IMG/VR virus record: IMGVR_UViG_3300013099_000056
Location: 1 to 31,075 of that record
Direction: 5' to 3' (one strand)
Source of the DNA: a virus
DNA: 31,075 nucleotides
Shown: piece after piece, positions 3,086 through 21,912 of the stretch
Layout: each line of letters opens with the position of its first letter
Position numbering within the stretch: position 1 is the first letter of the stretch
Program-made: the position numbers and the translations under genes
The notes under the pieces: model-generated
The model's database searches: none
Told to the model about the DNA's origin: nothing
Seen by the model: only the letters and a program-made list of their open reading frames with translations

Positions 3086-3391
3086 TCAGGTATTTTCCTT
3101 GTTAATTCTATCTACAACAAAATGTAGAATATTAGATAGCCTATGTAATATTATGCCGTAAAAAAATATATTAACATAAAAATTATCTAACAAAATAAAT
3201 ACAACTACTACGAATAATGCAATCCATACAGAAGTACAATACCCGCAGTCTAGTAAACTATGAATCCAATTAAAAAATCTATTGCTTTTTTTCCTAAAAA
3301 AGAACTTCTTTAGCGGTTCAAAAAATTCAGATTTAGTTATTAACTCTGTCAATGCTTCAATGAGTATTATAGCTAATAGATATTTTATCAT
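3086..3391 (-). CDS. DUF1360-like integral membrane protein
   Basis: 101 residues with an N-terminal hydrophobic segment (about 3-15), a basic stretch (F-F-F-R-K-K-S-N-R) and two further membrane segments (about 56-67 and 73-85). The D-C-G-Y-C-T-S-V-W-I motif near residues 48-57 matches the cysteine-pair plus Trp signature of DUF1360, a family of small membrane proteins of unknown function found in some phages and bacilli. It lies directly after the capsid gene hairpin, an unusual place for a membrane protein. It may be a host-envelope modifier such as a superinfection-exclusion or lysis-related protein. Family match is by motif only. Confidence 0.65.
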   Translation of the reverse strand: MIKYLLAIILIEALTELITKSEFFEPLKKFFFRKKSNRFFNWIHSLLDCGYCTSVWIALFVVVVFILLDNFYVNIFFYGIILHRLSNILHFVVDRINKENT

Positions 3392-3408
3392 AATTACCTT
3401 TTAGTAAA

Positions 3409-3428
3409 CCCTGCGCTAATGCGCAGGG
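3409..3428 (-). terminator. Hairpin after the major capsid gene
   Basis: A perfect 8-bp stem CCCTGCGC/GCGCAGGG with a 4-nt loop starts 14 bases after the capsid stop. On the minus strand it is followed by TTTACTAAAA, a weak U-tract. It is a likely partial terminator or 3' stabiliser that would favour high capsid mRNA relative to downstream genes. Confidence 0.65.
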
Positions 3429-3441
3429 CACTATTAAACCG

Positions 3442-4509
3442 TTATAAACTTCTATCAATAACACCCATACCGAGCATTCTACTATCAAGACAAGCAAATC
3501 CAATTTCTGCCCAACCAAAAAAACCTTGTTTCTGGACACGAAGTAAAGTCGGATCGTCATAAGCTTCATACTCTTTTCTAATAGGCATAACCAAAGAATC
3601 ATTAACAGTCAGATCAAAACCAAGAACCTGAGTTTCACCGAGCGTAGTAACAATGCCGGTAGCGTCAACGATATTAGGATTGTCAAGACTATAAGAATTG
3701 TAGGTATTAGTGGAATCACATACAAACTTACCGTAAGCAGAACCAAAACCATTAATATTATACATACCAACGGCACCAAGATGGTCTACCTCGTGAAGCT
3801 GTACATTCCACAGACTTCCCATACCAGCAGCCTGAAAAATCTCACGCCTGGTTACAGGATCAATATCTGTATCAGTCCACTCACGAATATCAGCTGCATC
3901 TTCTGGAGATACATACAGATCCGTAAGAGTCCTACCAGTTCTCTTAAACCCAACAATCATTTTGTTTATAAGTTCTTTAGAAAGATAACCAGCTCCAGTA
4001 GAAGCGGGAGCTATCTCGTAAATAGGAGCAGGACGCGAACCAAGCAGTCCCTTCCCAGAAAAAGCTGAAGTAGCTGCAGGCATAATTACCCTCCAACCAC
4101 ACTCTTCCTCATAATTAGCCAAGTCCTTAGCAGCTCTAGCAGCAGCTCTGGACGCTATATCTACACGAGAATCTCTCGCGTATGTAATTTTCCAATCAGC
4201 AGAAGCATCGATGGTAAACGTAGGAACGTATACCTCTTCTCCGATACCTTCAATGAAGTTCTGGGCAACATAACCCAATCCAGGGAGTACCCATACAGGA
4301 ATCTCAAAATCCTCAGCGACAGGATATACAGCCTGTGCGCCTGGTGCCAGCCTCTCAACCGAGAACAGCTGACGCATAATAGATTCCAATTCAATTTTCT
4401 GCAAGATCGGAGTCGTCAGAGCGGCAGCAAAAGCTTTCCTTTTAGCTGCACCTTCAGGGGACATCTCAGCAGTTTCCCTGAAAAGCTCCATCATTTCATT
4501 TCTTTCCAT
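3442..4509 (-). CDS. Major capsid protein, HK97-like
   Basis: 355 residues. The N-terminal region (M-E-R-N-E-M-M-E-L-F-R-E-T-A, L-T-T-P-I-L-Q-K-I-E-L-E-S-I) followed by A-P-G-A-Q-A-V-Y-P-V-A-E-D-F-E-I-P-V-W-V-L-P and a long beta-rich body (Y-V-P-T-F-T-I, W-K-I-T-Y-A-R-D) matches major capsid proteins of a phage group whose family I remember only by pattern. The C-terminal part has L-V-M-P-I-R-K-E-Y-E and G-W-A-E-I-G-F. Position after scaffold and decoration genes and before a hairpin supports the call, as does the GGAGGAG site. No N-terminal delta domain is evident, consistent with a separately encoded scaffold at 5268-6020. Confidence 0.88.
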   Translation of the reverse strand: MERNEMMELFRETAEMSPEGAAKRKAFAAALTTPILQKIELESIMRQLFSVERLAPGAQAVYPVAEDFEIPVWVLPGLGYVAQNFIEGIGEEVYVPTFTIDASADWKITYARDSRVDIASRAAARAAKDLANYEEECGWRVIMPAATSAFSGKGLLGSRPAPIYEIAPASTGAGYLSKELINKMIVGFKRTGRTLTDLYVSPEDAADIREWTDTDIDPVTRREIFQAAGMGSLWNVQLHEVDHLGAVGMYNINGFGSAYGKFVCDSTNTYNSYSLDNPNIVDATGIVTTLGETQVLGFDLTVNDSLVMPIRKEYEAYDDPTLLRVQKQGFFGWAEIGFACLDSRMLGMGVIDRSL

Positions 4510-9872: not shown

Positions 9873-12839
9873 TTATTTAATCTTTTTATGTAAAACAGCC
9901 AAATTACGTCCACCAACTCCAATAGCAGGACCTTTTGTATTAAAAGTTTTAAACTTATTTTCGTTTCTCATTCTAACACAACCGCTACTATTATGAAGAA
10001 CCAGTTCTGGTTCTCCCTCTAGTTCTTTCTCTACCATTCTAACTCCATGGGCTGCGAGTATTATAGCAGAGTACAAATCCTTATTCTGTCCTTTAGTGGG
10101 TGTATCAAAATGTAACAACCCACTGGACGTCTGTGTAACTATTATATTTAACATTTGACTTTTAAGTTTTTTAATGCTTTCATAAGCCACTGCCTCAGCA
10201 TCTAAAGTGGAAATTGGTGCCTCGGGAAACTTAAGTCTTTCATCCTCTAAAAGAGATAATGTTGTAAAGTTAGCATCTGAAATCCAAGACGGGTTAAAAT
10301 TAACCATTTCAAGTATGTGTCTTCCTTTCATATGCCTATGCTCCTCGTTGGTTCGATCTATTATAGGTTCCTTGCCATTATAACCATCCTCCAACAAATC
10401 ACATATAGCTTTTCCTCCGCCGCCCTTATCTACAAATATTCTCATCACGTTGTAGTTTTCACATAATCTTTGAACAAATGTAGTCATGTCTTGTGTAGTA
10501 TTCTTTTTTAATTCTATAACATTAGCCACTCTATTAACAGGACCCATCCTAATAATAACTACACCGCAACTAGCACTACCACCCTGATTAGGGTCCATAC
10601 CTACAATGTATTTAGCCGATGAATCTCCTCGTAAATCTATGGAAAAACCACTATTACGAGTACAAGCCTCTATCAAAGACGCTTTAAAAAATCCTTCTGA
10701 ATCAGAGATCATTTCTGCTTCATACTCCATACGGAACTCAGCACTAGACATAACACGCTTAGCTTCAGCAATATTATCTGCATCTGAGAACCCTTCTGGT
10801 AAATCCGTATATGGTACCTGGTGTACAGAATAAGTAGATTCATCATCCCCATATCTTTCCATCTGTTCCCAATAATCTCTCATTCTACGCCACATATGAT
10901 TAAACTTATAATAACCAGATGAAGTCATTACCATTTTATTAACTGTATTTTCTTCAAAATCATCAGATGTAGCTATACCTTTCGCTATTAACCTTCTTTG
11001 TCTTTCTAGACGCCGTACATTTTCCATAGGTTCCATAGTAGTGGCACCCATAGGACGAATTACCATGTCTAAAGTCTTATCTGGAATCTGTGCCAACTCG
11101 TCCAAACATACCAGATAAAAACGTGACCCACGAATCTTATTACCATCACCCAAAGGCAAAGCCTCTACGTAAGAAGCATTAAATCCCCCTACAGCTTTAA
11201 ACCTCAGATAGCATAAATCAGACCCTCTAGTAGGTCTTTTATCACAAGCCTCTCTAAGAAGAGGTGCTTTACTATACAGTTTCTCTATCTCAGAAAAAAT
11301 CATTTTTGAATTATGGGATATAAAACCACTAGACCAATAACAAGATTCTTTTTCTACTTCTACATCTATAGTAGGCGCAAAAAAATAATCATCTTCTACC
11401 ATCTTTACAAAGTACAATCCACGGTTATAGTAATCTTGACATTTAGAATAATTATTTTTTACTATAGAATTAGGTAAACCTATAGCTTTAGCCAAACTTT
11501 CTTCCCTGTTAAAATGTAAATCTAAATAGTTAGATAACTTTTTAGTTTTTCTTTTACATCTAAAACCTATAATACTATTAAACCTTGTAATAAATGTTTG
11601 CCCTGTAATTCTTATTTTATACGCTTCAGCACATTTGGACGGTTTATTTCTTCCTGCTAAACACCGTTCTTCTGCCTTTTTACTTACACCTAGATTAGAT
11701 ATTATACCTAAATTTAATAACACCGCATGAACTTCTTTTGCTAATTGTAAAGATGATGTAGAAAACCCAATAGTGCAACCATTAGTTTTTTTCTGTATAT
11801 AAACATTACCGTCGGTATCAAACAGTCCTTGCAAAAAAGCTACCATGTTTTCTCTAGAGACTTTTTTAATAACGTCTGGAACTTTTTTATCTAAAGCAGT
11901 AGTTCTTGTAAAACCACACTTCAGCAAATATATACATAATTTTTTATTATTAAATTGTAATTCTTTTATGTTATTCCTTCTTGGCTGCTCTTTGGTTTCT
12001 ATACCAAAATATTCTTTTGTGTATCTATGAAAACTGTCTAATAAGTCTCTATCTTCATTAACAAAATCTAATCTTGGTTTTTTATCGTTTTTTCTAAATG
12101 TAACACAACCGTCTCCAACTATCATACCAAATAAGTAAGCTAAATCAGGTGTAATCTCTTTAGGTATATTACAATCTTTTGACCTCCAACATAGTTCATA
12201 TTCATCAAATGTTGGCATTGAGTTGTTATTACCAAAGTAGTTAAATCCTGTTTTTATTGCTATATAATCGCTATATCTTAGGTCCTGCATATCTTTGAAC
12301 CCTATGTCATATATACTATTCAATACTACTACACCATGATCTACAGTACCTGCTAATTCAAAGCCTTTAGTAGTCTTTATACTTCTACATGCTCTATCTG
12401 GATTTTTCCACTTACTTAAAATAGTATTTTGAAAATCTAGAGACTGTGTTTTAGTTATACCTTCTTGTACAGAATCATAAAATTTTTGTGTAGAAGTTTG
12501 TAAACCACTTGAAGTCCAAAAAGTATCAAATCTGTAGTTATTTCCGGTACTTACGACCAAGCTCTGTCTGAAAACCGGGCCAATTAGTCCTACCCTATAT
12601 CCTGGATAAAGCATACTACTAAGAGAAGCCAATACACCCAGCATATAGGTTTTTCCACTGCCTCGACCCATTACAGATATTGTATTATTTTTAAACCACA
12701 TATCTTTAAATACAATTCTTTGGATAGGAGCAAAGTCGACGTTTAATAGATCGTATGCAGCAATACAAGGGTGTTCTCTATAAAACCTTACTAAGTCTTT
12801 ACCGTTATTTAAAATGTCTATGTAATTTTTATTTGCCAC
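9873..12839 (-). CDS. terL: Terminase large subunit interrupted by an intein
   Basis: 988 codons, starting at GTG 12839, which overlaps the TAG of the gene upstream by one base. The extein has the Walker A G-R-G-S-G-K-T (58-64), Walker B Y-L-V-C-L-D-E (575-581), coupling motif M-V-M-T-S-S-G (636-642), and an RNase-H-like nuclease with D749 (V-G-M-D-P), D804 (F-V-D-K-G-G) and D921 (K-D-L-Y-S-A). Residues 93-510 are an intein, leaving a 570-residue mature terminase. The enzyme cuts concatemeric DNA and pumps it into proheads through the portal. The gene follows the small terminase candidate. The intein must splice for packaging, since it sits 28 residues after the P-loop. Confidence 0.93.
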   Translation of the reverse strand: MANKNYIDILNNGKDLVRFYREHPCIAAYDLLNVDFAPIQRIVFKDMWFKNNTISVMGRGSGKTYMLGVLASLSSMLYPGYRVGLIGPVFRQSLVVSTGNNYRFDTFWTSSGLQTSTQKFYDSVQEGITKTQSLDFQNTILSKWKNPDRACRSIKTTKGFELAGTVDHGVVVLNSIYDIGFKDMQDLRYSDYIAIKTGFNYFGNNNSMPTFDEYELCWRSKDCNIPKEITPDLAYLFGMIVGDGCVTFRKNDKKPRLDFVNEDRDLLDSFHRYTKEYFGIETKEQPRRNNIKELQFNNKKLCIYLLKCGFTRTTALDKKVPDVIKKVSRENMVAFLQGLFDTDGNVYIQKKTNGCTIGFSTSSLQLAKEVHAVLLNLGIISNLGVSKKAEERCLAGRNKPSKCAEAYKIRITGQTFITRFNSIIGFRCKRKTKKLSNYLDLHFNREESLAKAIGLPNSIVKNNYSKCQDYYNRGLYFVKMVEDDYFFAPTIDVEVEKESCYWSSGFISHNSKMIFSEIEKLYSKAPLLREACDKRPTRGSDLCYLRFKAVGGFNASYVEALPLGDGNKIRGSRFYLVCLDELAQIPDKTLDMVIRPMGATTMEPMENVRRLERQRRLIAKGIATSDDFEENTVNKMVMTSSGYYKFNHMWRRMRDYWEQMERYGDDESTYSVHQVPYTDLPEGFSDADNIAEAKRVMSSAEFRMEYEAEMISDSEGFFKASLIEACTRNSGFSIDLRGDSSAKYIVGMDPNQGGSASCGVVIIRMGPVNRVANVIELKKNTTQDMTTFVQRLCENYNVMRIFVDKGGGGKAICDLLEDGYNGKEPIIDRTNEEHRHMKGRHILEMVNFNPSWISDANFTTLSLLEDERLKFPEAPISTLDAEAVAYESIKKLKSQMLNIIVTQTSSGLLHFDTPTKGQNKDLYSAIILAAHGVRMVEKELEGEPELVLHNSSGCVRMRNENKFKTFNTKGPAIGVGGRNLAVLHKKIK
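11310..12563 (-). mobile_element. Intein with LAGLIDADG homing endonuclease inside terL
   Basis: 418 residues (93-510 of the precursor). The N-terminal splice junction is F-R-Q followed by Ser-Leu-Val-Val-Ser-Thr, so the intein nucleophile is Ser1. Block B is G-F-E-L-A-G-T-V-D-H (159-168). The two LAGLIDADG helices are L-A-Y-L-F-G-M-I-V-G-D-G (233-244, Asp243) and F-L-Q-G-L-F-D-T-D-G (335-344, Asp343). Block F is T-I-D-V-E-V-E and the end is G-F-I-S-H-N followed by Ser+1. Joining R-Q to S-K-M-I-F restores a continuous terminase sequence. Both catalytic Asp residues are present, so the endonuclease may still be active and able to home into intein-less terL alleles. Confidence 0.92.
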
Positions 12840-16918: not shown

Positions 16919-17341
16919 CTAATCAACCTTTGTACTCCAGGCATTAACATATATAACAGATTTTAATAAAACATATTCTTCCATTAAAGAATCTCTCTGC
17001 TCAATTAGTTTAAAAATATCTATTGAATGATCGTTATTTTTTATTACCACATCTATTGCTTCCATCTTCTTTAAAATAGTGTCTATTAATACTAAAGCGG
17101 AAGACACATCTACTTCATCAGAATCACCTATTTTTATATTACTATTATTGTTTGATCTGTTTAATAATAAAGTGTATCTTTGATATTCTTCTAATAAAAT
17201 AAATATCCTTTCTAAACACTCTTTATATATTCCGCCTTTACTGTTAGCCTCATCCGTAGGTAGAGAATGTAAATAGATTTTCAATTCTTTTATTTTATTA
17301 TCTATATTACTTCTTCTAACCGTTAACTCTCCTATAAACAT
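16919..17341 (-). CDS. DIP1984-family-like protein
   Basis: 140 residues. The pattern L-T-V-R-R-S-N-I-D-N-K-I-K-E-L-K (5-20), a helical middle, then L-L-L-N-R-S-N-N-N-S (about 57-66) and a last helix resembles the DIP1984 family (a small helical family with an I-N-R-T-N motif and unknown role). It is the first gene of a transcript from the promoter at 17357-17386. GAGG lies six bases before the ATG, and the predicted leader is only about 10 nt. The family match is from memory of the pattern. Confidence 0.6.
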   Translation of the reverse strand: MFIGELTVRRSNIDNKIKELKIYLHSLPTDEANSKGGIYKECLERIFILLEEYQRYTLLLNRSNNNSNIKIGDSDEVDVSSALVLIDTILKKMEAIDVVIKNNDHSIDIFKLIEQRDSLMEEYVLLKSVIYVNAWSTKVD

Positions 17342-17356
17342 TTACTTACCTCATTA

Positions 17357-17386
17357 ATAATATAAGCACTTATTTACATTTGTCAA
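17357..17386 (-). promoter_or_regulatory. Sigma70/SigA-type promoter
   Basis: Minus strand: TTGACA at 17386-17381, a 16-nt spacer, TATATT at 17364-17359. It sits in the intergenic space before the 16919-17341 gene. It shares the pattern TTGACAAAnnnAAAT with the promoters near 24970 and 26750. The predicted start is about 17352, leaving a very short leader that still includes the GAGG site. Confidence 0.75.
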
Positions 17387-17400
17387 GTACTTTTTAATTA

Positions 17401-17757
17401 TTATACAACATCAATTACTTCTATCGACCATATACCAGCAACACTTAACATCTCACCTACAGCAACCGCATAAACTGAAAAATCATATTCTCCTATTTCA
17501 CTAGGAGCAGTCCAAATGTAAGAATCATTGCCTGAAGAAGTAGTCGTTCCGCTAGCCGTCGTATAATAAAAATTATCAGAATCATAGTTAATCACCGTCA
17601 CCGTTAAATCGACGTCTGGATTTACCGTACTTTCTGTACCAGTAACGGTTGGAACGTCAGTCTGTGTACCAGAAGTAACAGTTATCAATTCTGCTTCTAA
17701 TAAAACAGCCTGTAAATCATAATAATCCTGAACCCAGTGCTGTGATAATGTAGTCAT
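17401..17757 (-). CDS. Ig-like domain protein, copy B
   Basis: 118 residues with an N-terminal helical tag (Q-H-W-V-Q-D-Y-Y-D-L-Q-A-V) and one beta-sandwich domain from about residue 28 to the end (T-S-G-T-Q-T-D-V-P-T-V-T-G-T-E-S-T-V, Y-I-W-T-A-P-S-E-I-G-E-Y-D-F-S-V, G-I-W-S-I-E-V). It resembles Ig-like/PKD-like domains that phages display on tails or heads to bind carbohydrates. It is clearly a paralogue of the 18099-18449 gene: 34 identical bases recur at 17476-17509 and 18168-18201. Unlike copy A it ends without a downstream domain. Display role inferred. Confidence 0.75.
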   Translation of the reverse strand: MTTLSQHWVQDYYDLQAVLLEAELITVTSGTQTDVPTVTGTESTVNPDVDLTVTVINYDSDNFYYTTASGTTTSSGNDSYIWTAPSEIGEYDFSVYAVAVGEMLSVAGIWSIEVIDVV

Positions 17758-17774
17758 TTATATACTCCTTATTA

Positions 17775-18098
17775 TTACCCGTAGAAATTAATTGATGCCA
17801 TCCACGCAGTAGAAGTTACCATAATTCTTGTTATATCTGAAACCCCAAATGCCTGTAAATTCTCTGTTGCACCTGGAGTATACATAGTATTTGTGTATAT
17901 TATAGTAGCACCAGCGTAAATAGTAAATGGTACCACCATTCCTGCTGGTAATGCGTTAAACTTGGTTGGGCGGAAATCAGTTGTCCATGATCCTATAGCT
18001 GTCAGATCAATAGTAGTCCCAACCCACTTAGAACCGTCCCAAGAACCTTCTACAGGAGTCCAATGAGTATTATCAAAATAAGATGCCCACTCTGGTCC
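17775..18098 (-). CDS. 107-codon tail-type domain in frame after a TAA of Ig-like copy A
   Basis: From the codon following the TAA at 18101-18099, the same frame stays open for 107 codons and stops at 17777-17775, directly before the AAGGAG site of the next gene. The translation (start G-P-E-W-A-S-Y-F-D-N-T, then W-T-P-V-E-G-S-W-D-G-S-K-W-V and F-R-P-T-K-F-N-A-L-P, end A-S-I-N-F-Y-G) reads like a beta-rich phage tail domain, with the common W-x-P-V-x-G-S-W-D-G-S-K-W pattern. There is no ATG, GTG or TTG in frame before residue 53. So it is either made by TAA readthrough, carried over from a nonsense mutation, or made from a non-standard start. I see no frameshift. Confidence 0.6.
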   Translation of the reverse strand, partial: GPEWASYFDNTHWTPVEGSWDGSKWVGTTIDLTAIGSWTTDFRPTKFNALPAGMVVPFTIYAGATIIYTNTMYTPGATENLQAFGVSDITRIMVTSTAWMASINFYG

Positions 18099-18449
18099 TT
18101 AAGAAGCTACTTCTATAGACCATATACCAGCATCACTTAATATCTCACCATGAGTAACAGCGTAAATTGAAAAATCATATTCTCCTATTTCACTAGGAGC
18201 AATCCAAATATAAGAATCACTACCTGAAGCGGTAGTCGTTCCGCTAGCTACTGACTGATAAAAGTTGTCAGAATCATAATCAGTTATTGTCACCACCAAA
18301 GTACCATCCGGTCCTACCGTACTTTCTGTACCGGTTACAGTAGGAACGTCGGTCTGTGTACCAGAACATGTACCTATTAAATCCTGTGTACATAATACAC
18401 TTTCTAAATCATAATAATAATCCACTAAATACGTCGAATAGTTAGACAT
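18099..18449 (-). CDS. Ig-like domain protein, copy A (possible readthrough gene)
   Basis: 116 residues from the ATG at 18449 (GGGAG ten bases upstream). A GTG-initiated extension to 18482 is possible but would lie in a hairpin. The fold is the same as copy B (G-T-Q-T-D-V-P-T-V-T-G-T-E-S-T-V, Y-I-W-I-A-P-S-E-I-G-E-Y-D-F-S-I, G-I-W-S-I-E-V-A-S). The gene ends at TAA, after which the frame continues open for 107 codons (17775-18098). Phages are known to append Ig-like domains to structural proteins by recoding, which makes the interrupted arrangement notable. The role is probably on the virion surface. Confidence 0.75.
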   Translation of the reverse strand: MSNYSTYLVDYYYDLESVLCTQDLIGTCSGTQTDVPTVTGTESTVGPDGTLVVTITDYDSDNFYQSVASGTTTASGSDSYIWIAPSEIGEYDFSIYAVTHGEILSDAGIWSIEVAS

Positions 18450-18492: not shown

Positions 18493-19251
18493 TTAATCTA
18501 AAGCTGTACTACATCTAGCACAAAAATGTGCGCTAGACTTTGACTTTTTTCCGCATGTAGGACACTGAATCTTAGTCTTAGTAGTAATAGGTTTCTTTAA
18601 AGCTTTACCGCTAGACCTATATCCTTGTAATCTAATATTAATTACAGAACTACTTGTTTCAAGTTCTCCTATAGAACCATAAACAAAGCTCTGATCTACT
18701 TTAGAACCTTTAACCGTGATACCTTCTTCTGAGCGTGGTGAAGAACACCTCGTAGTATTAGAAGCAAAACTTGAGCTTCCTACGTTACTACACGAATAAG
18801 TAGACACAGGACTTCCGCTAGTAAAGTCTAATCCACCGATCGGAGTAATAGGATCATATGATCTCACACTATCCAAATTACACCAAATGTGTGGCTGTGG
18901 TAAACTCTCCTCAAACTGAAACTCAACGTGCACCATACCGTCGTCAACCCTATCACCACGGTAGTCAGAAATTTGTTTAGTTTTTTTAATAAACCTAAAT
19001 CTATTTTTAACATAAGTCCCTTTCATGAATCCTTTTAACGAGAACTCCTCATTAGGACCAATTATTAATCCATTACCATCAAGAGCGTCTTTTCCGTCTA
19101 CTTCAACGTTAACCAATGCCCTAACTGAATTTTTATTCTTCATTAAAACTTCATATTCTGAACCAAACGGTAATTTAATTATACCGCGGTTCTCTCTTAA
19201 AATTTTACCTTTATTTTTAATTACCGCAATAAAATCTTCTTTGTATACCAT
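18493..19251 (-). CDS. Conserved phage protein with C-terminal zinc ribbon
   Basis: 252 residues. The N-terminal 115 form a beta-rich domain (L-P-F-G-S-E-Y-E-V-L-M-K-N-K-N-S-V-R-A-L, D-G-N-G-L-I-I-G-P-N-E-E, R-G-D-R-V-D-D-G). I have seen this pattern in uncharacterised phage proteins. A Ser/Thr-rich linker follows (about 140-180). The last 23 residues are a C-P-T-C-G / C-A-R-C zinc ribbon (C230, C233, C245, C248). The ribbon suggests protein or nucleic-acid contact. The gene has GGAGG before its ATG and a structured 5' leader (19252-19375). Function unknown; a virion or assembly role is plausible from the neighbours. Confidence 0.7.
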   Translation of the reverse strand: MVYKEDFIAVIKNKGKILRENRGIIKLPFGSEYEVLMKNKNSVRALVNVEVDGKDALDGNGLIIGPNEEFSLKGFMKGTYVKNRFRFIKKTKQISDYRGDRVDDGMVHVEFQFEESLPQPHIWCNLDSVRSYDPITPIGGLDFTSGSPVSTYSCSNVGSSSFASNTTRCSSPRSEEGITVKGSKVDQSFVYGSIGELETSSSVINIRLQGYRSSGKALKKPITTKTKIQCPTCGKKSKSSAHFCARCSTALD

Positions 19252-20231: not shown

Positions 20232-21266
20232 CTATAATTGAGCAGCTAACAAACAACCGCTAGCTACAGCACACATTGGATTTTCTGCTTTCCTTATCTC
20301 ACTTACTTTAAATGGTAACTCTATACCAGATAAAGCTGTTTCAAATCTCTTAACAAAACCCTTAGCCAAAGACAATCCACCAGACACAATTACTGGTATC
20401 GGTTCTCGGAAAAGGGGTAACTCTTTTTTGCTTTTTTCTAGTTGGTAAGCTATATTTTGTAAAGTATAATTAAATACAGACGAGTAATACACAGATACTG
20501 CTTCTTTTATTTTAACAGATAATTCTTCTTGTGACGTGGACATACTATCCTTACTACTAATTAGGTTACTTAAATCAATACCCGCTTCCTTCTCAAGCTG
20601 TACTAAAGAAGGTGAAAGATCTAAAGCATTACCTACAGACAAATCTATAAAGTCTCCTGACTTTGTAGTACTAAACTCTACTAGTGCGTCACCTTGATGT
20701 AGAACAGCTATATTAACCATACCTGCCCCCCAACTAATAGCAACACCACTCAAACCGTCATCTAATAGTTCATTCAAAGCAATGGCATATCCCTCATTAA
20801 GTGGAGACGCATCATAACCCATATCGTTAAGATACACATTCATCATTTCTGTATGGTATATTATATCATAACTTGCATCTATCGGTTTGGCGGGAACGCT
20901 ATAAACAATTTTATCACCTGTACTACCATCTCCTATAAGTTCTTTGATTAAATACTTAAGCATAGGTAAAGACGCTTTTTCTTTGGGGGAAACAACTCCT
21001 TTTCTCAGAGGTCGTTTTGCTACATCATTTCTCTCTATTGCTGTCTGAAGAGCATCCTCCCCAACAACAAGAAAATTATGACCGTCCATAATATACTTAC
21101 AGTTTTGTTTATCTAATGCTATCTGGATACTATGTTTGTTCACTTCTGATTTTGGTTCTATGGTATAAAAAGCATCCCTTTGCATTTTAAATTCAGGAGA
21201 ACCATCTTCCCCTACCCTTGCTGCAACCAGCATATTTGTACCAATGTCAAGCCCACAATTACTCAT
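20232..21266 (-). CDS. Actin-like ATPase (ParM/Alp class)
   Basis: 344 residues with the actin/Hsp70 ATPase signature: phosphate-1 G-L-D-I-G-T-N (5-11), connect-1 P-L-N-E-G-Y-A-I-A-L-N-E (155-166), phosphate-2 I-S-W-G-A-G-M-V-N-I-A-V (177-188) and adenosine loop V-I-V-S-G-G-L-S-L-A-K (292-302). Members build filaments that segregate plasmids or phage DNA. The usual D-x-G in phosphate-2 is S-W-G-A-G here, a notable departure. It follows the HNH gene, whose last codons contain its own GGAGG site. The coiled-coil gene two places upstream could be the adaptor. Segregation, capsid transport and nucleoid positioning are all possible. Confidence 0.82.
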   Translation of the reverse strand: MSNCGLDIGTNMLVAARVGEDGSPEFKMQRDAFYTIEPKSEVNKHSIQIALDKQNCKYIMDGHNFLVVGEDALQTAIERNDVAKRPLRKGVVSPKEKASLPMLKYLIKELIGDGSTGDKIVYSVPAKPIDASYDIIYHTEMMNVYLNDMGYDASPLNEGYAIALNELLDDGLSGVAISWGAGMVNIAVLHQGDALVEFSTTKSGDFIDLSVGNALDLSPSLVQLEKEAGIDLSNLISSKDSMSTSQEELSVKIKEAVSVYYSSVFNYTLQNIAYQLEKSKKELPLFREPIPVIVSGGLSLAKGFVKRFETALSGIELPFKVSEIRKAENPMCAVASGCLLAAQL

Positions 21267-21270
21267 AATT

Positions 21271-21912
21271 CTAACCTCCGCATTTTAAGTCTGAGCGTCT
21301 ACATCCATCTTTTGAATGTACTTCCTCATGACATTCTTTACATAACGTTATACACATATCTGTATCAGCAGACTCAATTGGGTTCTGCATTATTCCTTCA
21401 AAGTGGTGGCAATGTAATTCAGTATTTATTACTCCACACTTTTGACATGTGTAATTATCTCTTTCTAAAACAAGTTTTCTTAATTCAGGCTGTACTTCAC
21501 GTGAAGTACCATCTTTATGTCCTTTAGGAAACAATCTCATCCTAAATATAGGACAAGCATCTTTACAATCTTCCGAACAATAGAAACTAGCTTCACCTCT
21601 TGTTTTACCATTAACTAAAATCTTAAGCCTTTCACCTACATGGGACCTTTTAGGAGTAAACCATCTGCCACAATAGGTACATTTGACCTGAAGTGTGTTG
21701 TAATCATTAGGATCTCTTCTTACTTCTTCCACATAAGAAATTTTTTCAGCATAAGTATCAAATAAAGGTATGTTCTTTTTCCAATAACCACCTTTATAAT
21801 TAGGATTTTTATTCCCTTTTCTCTTACTAGCAGCCAAGGATATCTTCTTTTTAGATGCTACAGAGTGCTTCTTACCGTAAAAATAATTTTCTTTTCCTTT
21901 CTGTCCTATCAT
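21271..21912 (-). CDS. Free-standing NUMOD3/HNH homing endonuclease
   Basis: 213 residues. The N-terminal NUMOD3-like segment (G-K-E-N-Y-F-Y-G-K-K-H-S, 7-18, plus K-K-I-S-L-A-A-S-K) is a DNA-binding motif. The middle carries a zinc-knuckle-like C-x-x-C / C-x-x-x-C pair (about 78-116). The C-terminal HNH nuclease spans about 145-199 with C156, C159, H169-H170, an N-rich segment and C191-C194-H199. It sits between the coiled-coil and actin genes with only four- and three-base gaps, so it looks inserted into a pre-existing operon without breaking it. It would cut an allele lacking it and spread. Activity not testable from sequence. Confidence 0.88.
   Translation of the reverse strand: MIGQKGKENYFYGKKHSVASKKKISLAASKRKGNKNPNYKGGYWKKNIPLFDTYAEKISYVEEVRRDPNDYNTLQVKCTYCGRWFTPKRSHVGERLKILVNGKTRGEASFYCSEDCKDACPIFRMRLFPKGHKDGTSREVQPELRKLVLERDNYTCQKCGVINTELHCHHFEGIMQNPIESADTDMCITLCKECHEEVHSKDGCRRSDLKCGG

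Follow-up and report, generated by a model that had tools for sequence, protein, structure and literature searches.

A gene for a small, predicted all-beta protein in an environmental virus is followed, in the same frame and immediately after its TAA stop codon, by 107 sense codons that encode a complete copy of a domain that recurs in about ten further viral lineages, as a part of tail and adhesin-like proteins. We believe that these codons are probably an adhesin module silenced by the stop, either because a nonsense mutation arose or because the module was acquired behind a stop codon that was retained. The window analysed here is the whole of a 31,075-nucleotide IMG/VR virus record (IMGVR_UViG_3300013099_000056). 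We refer to the small gene as copy A, to its paralogue in the window as copy B, and to the 107 codons as the extension; their coordinates are collected in Table 1.

Table 1. Features at and around the interrupted reading frame (coordinates of the window)
Feature	Coordinates	Strand	Description
Upstream flanking conserved gene	18493..19251	(-)	252 aa, C-terminal part zinc-ribbon-like; 16 relatives, 38-49% identical
Copy A ('Ig-like' in the original prediction)	18102..18449	(-)	116 aa, small all-beta, predicted N-terminal helix
Hairpin UGGUCU-AU-AGAAG-UAG-CUUCU-UAA-GGACCA	18090..18122	(-)	Putative element; stop in internal loop
In-frame TAA	18099..18101	(-)	Boundary of copy A and extension; UAAG context
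Extension	17778..18098	(-)	107 codons; predicted complete CBM-like jelly-roll domain of the 'W..yFDNTxW' family
TAA closing the extension	17775..17777	(-)	Read from sequence and translation
Copy B	17401..17757	(-)	Paralogue of copy A, 118 aa; has its own start and ribosome site, lacks an extension and ends TAATAATTAA
Downstream flanking conserved gene	16919..17341	(-)	140 aa; directly after the 252-aa gene in relatives

Coding status of the codons beyond the stop

The sequence and its translation bear out the original prediction that copy A ends at the TAA and that 107 in-frame sense codons then follow. It was also predicted that no ATG, GTG or TTG occurs before residue 53 of the extension; we find none before residue 54, where the first in-frame ATG is located (position 17939). 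Near-cognate starts are late as well: by our reading the earliest near-cognate codon is an AAG at residue 24, and no ATT or CTG lies ahead of residue 30. The TAA that closes the extension is followed by TAATAAGGAG, which contains a ribosome site, and then by copy B.

In random sequence of the same composition, an open stretch of 107 codons would occur with a probability of ~2e-4. In-frame open stretches of more than 60 codons follow the stop at 8 of the 54 gene ends in the window; judging from the list of open reading frames, we read the others as a following gene that has a start codon of its own and lies in the same frame. The in-frame codon score of the extension is 0.48 per codon, which is like that of the neighbouring genes, and the other two frames score -0.04 and -0.15. 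Codon usage in the 107 codons is phage-like, with no visible decay. Since homology (described below) settles the question and the codon signal agrees, the extension can be taken as true coding sequence; a chance open frame is ruled out on the same two grounds.

A stand-alone gene with an ordinary start can also be rejected. The first ordinary start codon comes only at residue 54, whereas residues 1-4 of the extension already mark the beginning of the domain: its conserved part sets in 1-3 residues past the TAA, and its invariant first tryptophan is residue 4. The residues leading up to this tryptophan ('PEW') are common to the extension and to the protein of another contig (L080). Therefore no start codon could serve the whole domain, and the original view that the extension is not an ordinary separate gene is upheld.

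The domain family and its predicted fold

A single-protein scan with the extension returned no homologues. A search of the records of 29 relatives of this virus, however, yielded a 344-aa protein with two stretches related to the extension, and profile scans then added further contigs, for a total of about ten lineages. The shared domain is an undescribed one, carried by environmental phage proteins (contigs L070-L086), and is characterized by the motif W..yFDNTxW ... GSW.g..kW ... RPTKIR ... IEFY, with five nearly invariant tryptophans. The extension is 23-36% identical to the other members over the aligned rows. A hidden Markov model built from 12 copies of the domain, the extension among them, covers the extension end to end (positions 3-121, E 1.5e-30, a value to be read with the extension as a row of its own model); independent support for homology comes from tblastn, where matches within the set of candidate stretches have E values between 3e-12 and 6e-6. 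At the sensitivity used, the domain has no match among annotated phages, nor by sequence in Pfam, PHROGs or the PDB, and a search of bacterial genomes returned nothing.

The homologues in tail and adhesin-like proteins support the original description of the 107 residues as a genuine phage domain of adhesion or tail type. Its place within these proteins varies. Elsewhere in the family the same domain is C-terminal after serine-rich linkers, internal, N-terminal or stand-alone. For example, serine-rich linkers accompany it in a protein of 1781 aa and in another of 886 aa, the second of which has a tail assembly match; L084 has an N-terminal copy, in a gene that begins TAA-ATG-GGA-TGG; and in L070 the domain forms a stand-alone gene of 136 aa. 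The original prediction proposed looking for homologues fused to Ig-like domains without a stop, and one such case was found: L080 carries a Big_1 Ig-like domain and the FDNTxW domain within one open frame. In another contig, L079, the domain is joined to a CHB_HEX_C domain, which has an Ig fold, only across a frame break.

Every other copy of the domain that we examined, L079 excepted, has an ordinary start and an open frame. In L079 (positions 3264-4345) the upstream phage gene contains the first half of CHB_HEX_C and stops at an ATGA stop/start overlap, and the remainder, together with the FDNTxW domain, continues in the -1 frame. When both parts are read as one, the Pfam match to CHB_HEX_C improves from 1.6e-10 to 8.4e-17. 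No other contig carries this junction, and the break could stem from mutation, re-initiation, recoding or an error in the sequence. It is suggestive that two family members are split beside a beta-sandwich domain, although two cases are no evidence for a mechanism.

The structure of the read-through form was modelled with AlphaFold from 13 alignment rows, with residue 117 standing for the TAA. Mean pLDDT in blocks across the extension is 67-92; a model from the single sequence reached a pLDDT of 43. When the extension was aligned structurally with VIA-align, the carbohydrate-binding modules CBM29, CBM86 and CBM8 scored Z 9.1-9.8 across 102-106 residues. CBM29 and CBM86 (9.2-9.8) were ahead of the other rows, and CBM29 was the best of all, at Z 9.8 with 102-104 residues aligned at an rmsd of 2.6-2.8 A. 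Because the best of these alignments start at model residues 116-118, the extension is predicted to be a complete jelly roll of carbohydrate-binding type, with the TAA at its boundary. The resemblance to CBM29, CBM86, CBM8, CBM32 and CBM6 extends over the whole extension and is one of predicted fold only, as identity is ~10-13% and no sequence match in the PDB or Pfam accompanies it. Foldseek alone found no PDB match below 1e-3 and a single BFVD match, with an rmsd of 19 A. Judging from the fold, the extension may bind sugars.

Paralogous copies in an inserted cassette

Copies A and B are 68% identical (dN 0.24, dS 0.57). Copy B terminates at ordinary stops and at nearly the same residue as copy A, four residues past a shared EV in B versus two in A; copy A can thus be regarded as complete without the extension. 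The original prediction called copy A Ig-like, a label that we could not confirm for either copy. Neither copy has a family match in Pfam (at the cutoff) or the PDB, PHROGs gives none for copy A, and the copy A half of the read-through model is predicted to be all-beta with a pLDDT of only ~30-50. Since that half was modelled so poorly, the Ig-like nature of the copies stays unproven.

The window encodes a large terminase and has a distant portal match to Bacillus phage G; contigs of its relatives reach 238 kb. In most of these relatives, only 19-54 nt separate the genes for the 252-aa and 140-aa proteins, whereas in the window the two are parted by ~1.1 kb containing copy A, the extension and copy B. 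Because the flanking genes adjoin one another in relatives, this cassette is an insertion, special to this phage among the relatives sampled. No relatives of copies A and B were found in viral contigs or in the 29 relatives' records, and the cassette as a whole has no close relatives in the viral and genome collections searched. Pfam zinc-ribbon matches of the 252-aa protein are all below the cutoff.

Several other features of the region were observed. A sigma-70-like promoter can be recognized by eye between copy B and the gene for the 140-aa protein (17359-17386, minus strand; TTGACA, 16 nt, TATATT). Positions 20232-21266 hold a gene of the actin superfamily (Pfam Volactin, E 1e-51; the family takes its name from an archaeal protein) that is kept in phage relatives at 52-67% identity. 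Beside it, at 21271-21912, is a small gene with a NUMOD3 motif and a weak HNH match, likely a free-standing homing endonuclease. The large terminase gene (9873-12839) contains an intein with a LAGLIDADG homing endonuclease; in many relatives the terminase match is ~1.3 kb shorter, consistent with an empty intein site. Finally, a relative of 237,910 bases (L093-L094) has a cluster of 16 tRNA genes, none of which was read as a stop suppressor, with one anticodon undetermined.

Probable silencing, possible recoding and known parallels

In the reading that we favour, the TAA would be a genuine, working stop, and the 107 codons an intact C-terminal adhesion module of carbohydrate-binding fold, in frame but untranslated save for trace ochre readthrough. 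The module would have entered the phage with, or beside, the cassette of copies A and B that was inserted between two conserved genes. It may have been fused to copy A until a nonsense mutation in the linker cut it off; alternatively, it may have been acquired behind the natural stop of copy A, lacking a start codon. The frame is undecayed, so the silencing event would be recent or mildly selected. Among bacterial stop codons UAA leaks least, and estimates of ochre readthrough in E. coli run from 1e-5 to 9e-4 (PMC5289835; PMC12645430). At such rates, most particles would hold well below one extended copy, even where the virion protein is abundant. Readthrough here would be basal only, and the order of events is likewise our reconstruction. 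The ordinary stops of copy B, the open frames around nearly all other copies of the domain that we examined, and the absence of the cassette from relatives speak for this reading as well.

Three observations weigh against this reading. The stop falls within a linker of ~5 codons out of 224, for which the chance is ~2% in the case of a random nonsense mutation. This low chance favours either acquisition behind a natural stop or real readthrough, and for this reason we continue to give programmed readthrough some weight, unlikely as we consider it. The lack of visible decay in the 107 codons and their phage-like codon usage also count against it. Moreover, known readthrough genes, among them the coat/A1 gene of Q-beta, are built in just this way, with an intact adhesion domain beyond a stop at a clean domain boundary. 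Under programmed UAA readthrough, a minor but constant fraction of the ribosomes would pass the TAA and produce a minor form of copy A bearing the CBM-like adhesion domain, at few sites on the virion. The position of the stop exactly at the boundary, the intact in-frame domain in phage codon usage, and the lack of an alternative start for the whole domain all agree with this account, as does a +4 base that is G rather than U, the strongest base at that position. The stop also lies in the loop of a hairpin (-10.8 kcal/mol) that is the second most stable at the 54 gene ends, although it ranks 74th among the local hairpins of the window. Phages, furthermore, often gain Ig-like C-terminal extensions by recoding (PMC5009743). 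Against it, UAA is the tightest of stops (PMC5289835, PMC12645430), and UAAG is not a leaky context for readthrough; structure downstream is not significant when longer stretches are shuffled (z -0.65, -1.23 and 0.04); none of the homologues found carries the same stop; and copy B lacks an extension. No suppressor tRNA was seen in the window (which has no tRNA at all), in the relatives' loci, or in three long relatives. Reassignment of TAA throughout the genome was rejected, because 37 of the 54 genes end in TAA and the conserved genes are unbroken by internal stops. Among the explanations first offered for the TAA, a nonsense mutation survives within our favoured reading, and no signal specific to programmed readthrough was found. 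We consider it doubtful that a dsDNA phage here uses UAA readthrough, perhaps aided by the hairpin, to equip a minor part of the copies of a small virion protein with a carbohydrate-binding adhesion domain.

The third explanation first offered, a non-canonical start, is unlikely, and we regard re-initiation at this site as quite improbable. Ribosomes would load at the UAAGGA and restart either at an unusual in-frame start or at an out-of-frame GTG, 11 nt past the stop, that opens only five codons (GTG GGC ATC TTA TTT TGA, MGILF) and would require a +1 slip at UUU-UGA. The sequence UAAGGA makes a good ribosome site; several genes in the window have a ribosome site overlapping the preceding stop, mostly with the start 11-17 nt on; the UUU-UGA resembles +1 shift sites of the prfB kind. 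The product, however, would lack the invariant first tryptophan, so that the start of the domain would be destroyed; the GTG is accounted for by conserved E-W codons (GAG TGG); chance alone would supply a start triplet at one offset or another; and no near-cognate in-frame start lies near the site. An error of sequencing or assembly, by which a true sense codon was misread and the gene is a plain fusion, seems to us a slim prospect. A fusion would be normal for this domain family, the record is a single metagenome assembly, and a near-identical contig (L004) ends before the locus of copy A and the extension. Yet the stop sits at copy A's natural end, and conserved genes of the window show no frame break or internal stop against relatives over ~19 kb of alignments in open frames; by our reading of the coordinates, the stops listed in those alignments either precede a start codon or belong to antisense shadow frames. 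Least credible of all is a hop over the stop, in which peptidyl-tRNA-Ser on the TCT before the TAA would re-pair with an in-frame TCT 21 nt on and resume at TAT TTT GAT AAT. The matched TCT codons and the hairpin holding the stop would suit such a bypass, but its product would also miss the invariant tryptophan, no nascent-peptide signal is known, and no natural in-frame cases are known (PMC5009743).

If the module is silent, as we favour, it captures a step of domain shuffling as it happens and draws attention to a so far undescribed family of adhesion domains across unrelated environmental phages. Were it translated by readthrough instead, the frameshifted Ig-like extensions known from tailed phages would have a counterpart that stays in frame and uses an ochre codon. 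The Q-beta coat/A1 gene likewise has a single in-frame stop after a small structural-type protein, followed by an intact C-terminal domain without its own start; the stop there is UGA, which is leaky and gives a known minor product (PMC8067240), whereas ours is UAA and known from sequence alone. A display domain likewise lies beyond the stop of a phage protein in the major coat of T3, in Lactobacillus phage A2, in Listeria phage PSA and in gp17.1* of SPP1. These recoded Ig-like or Fn3 extensions of tailed phages are modules spread by non-homologous recombination (PMC5009743). They are reached by -1 or +1 frameshifting at known sites, such as CCC-UAA in SPP1 (PMC6316719), whereas the extension described here continues in the same frame as copy A, and no shift is needed.
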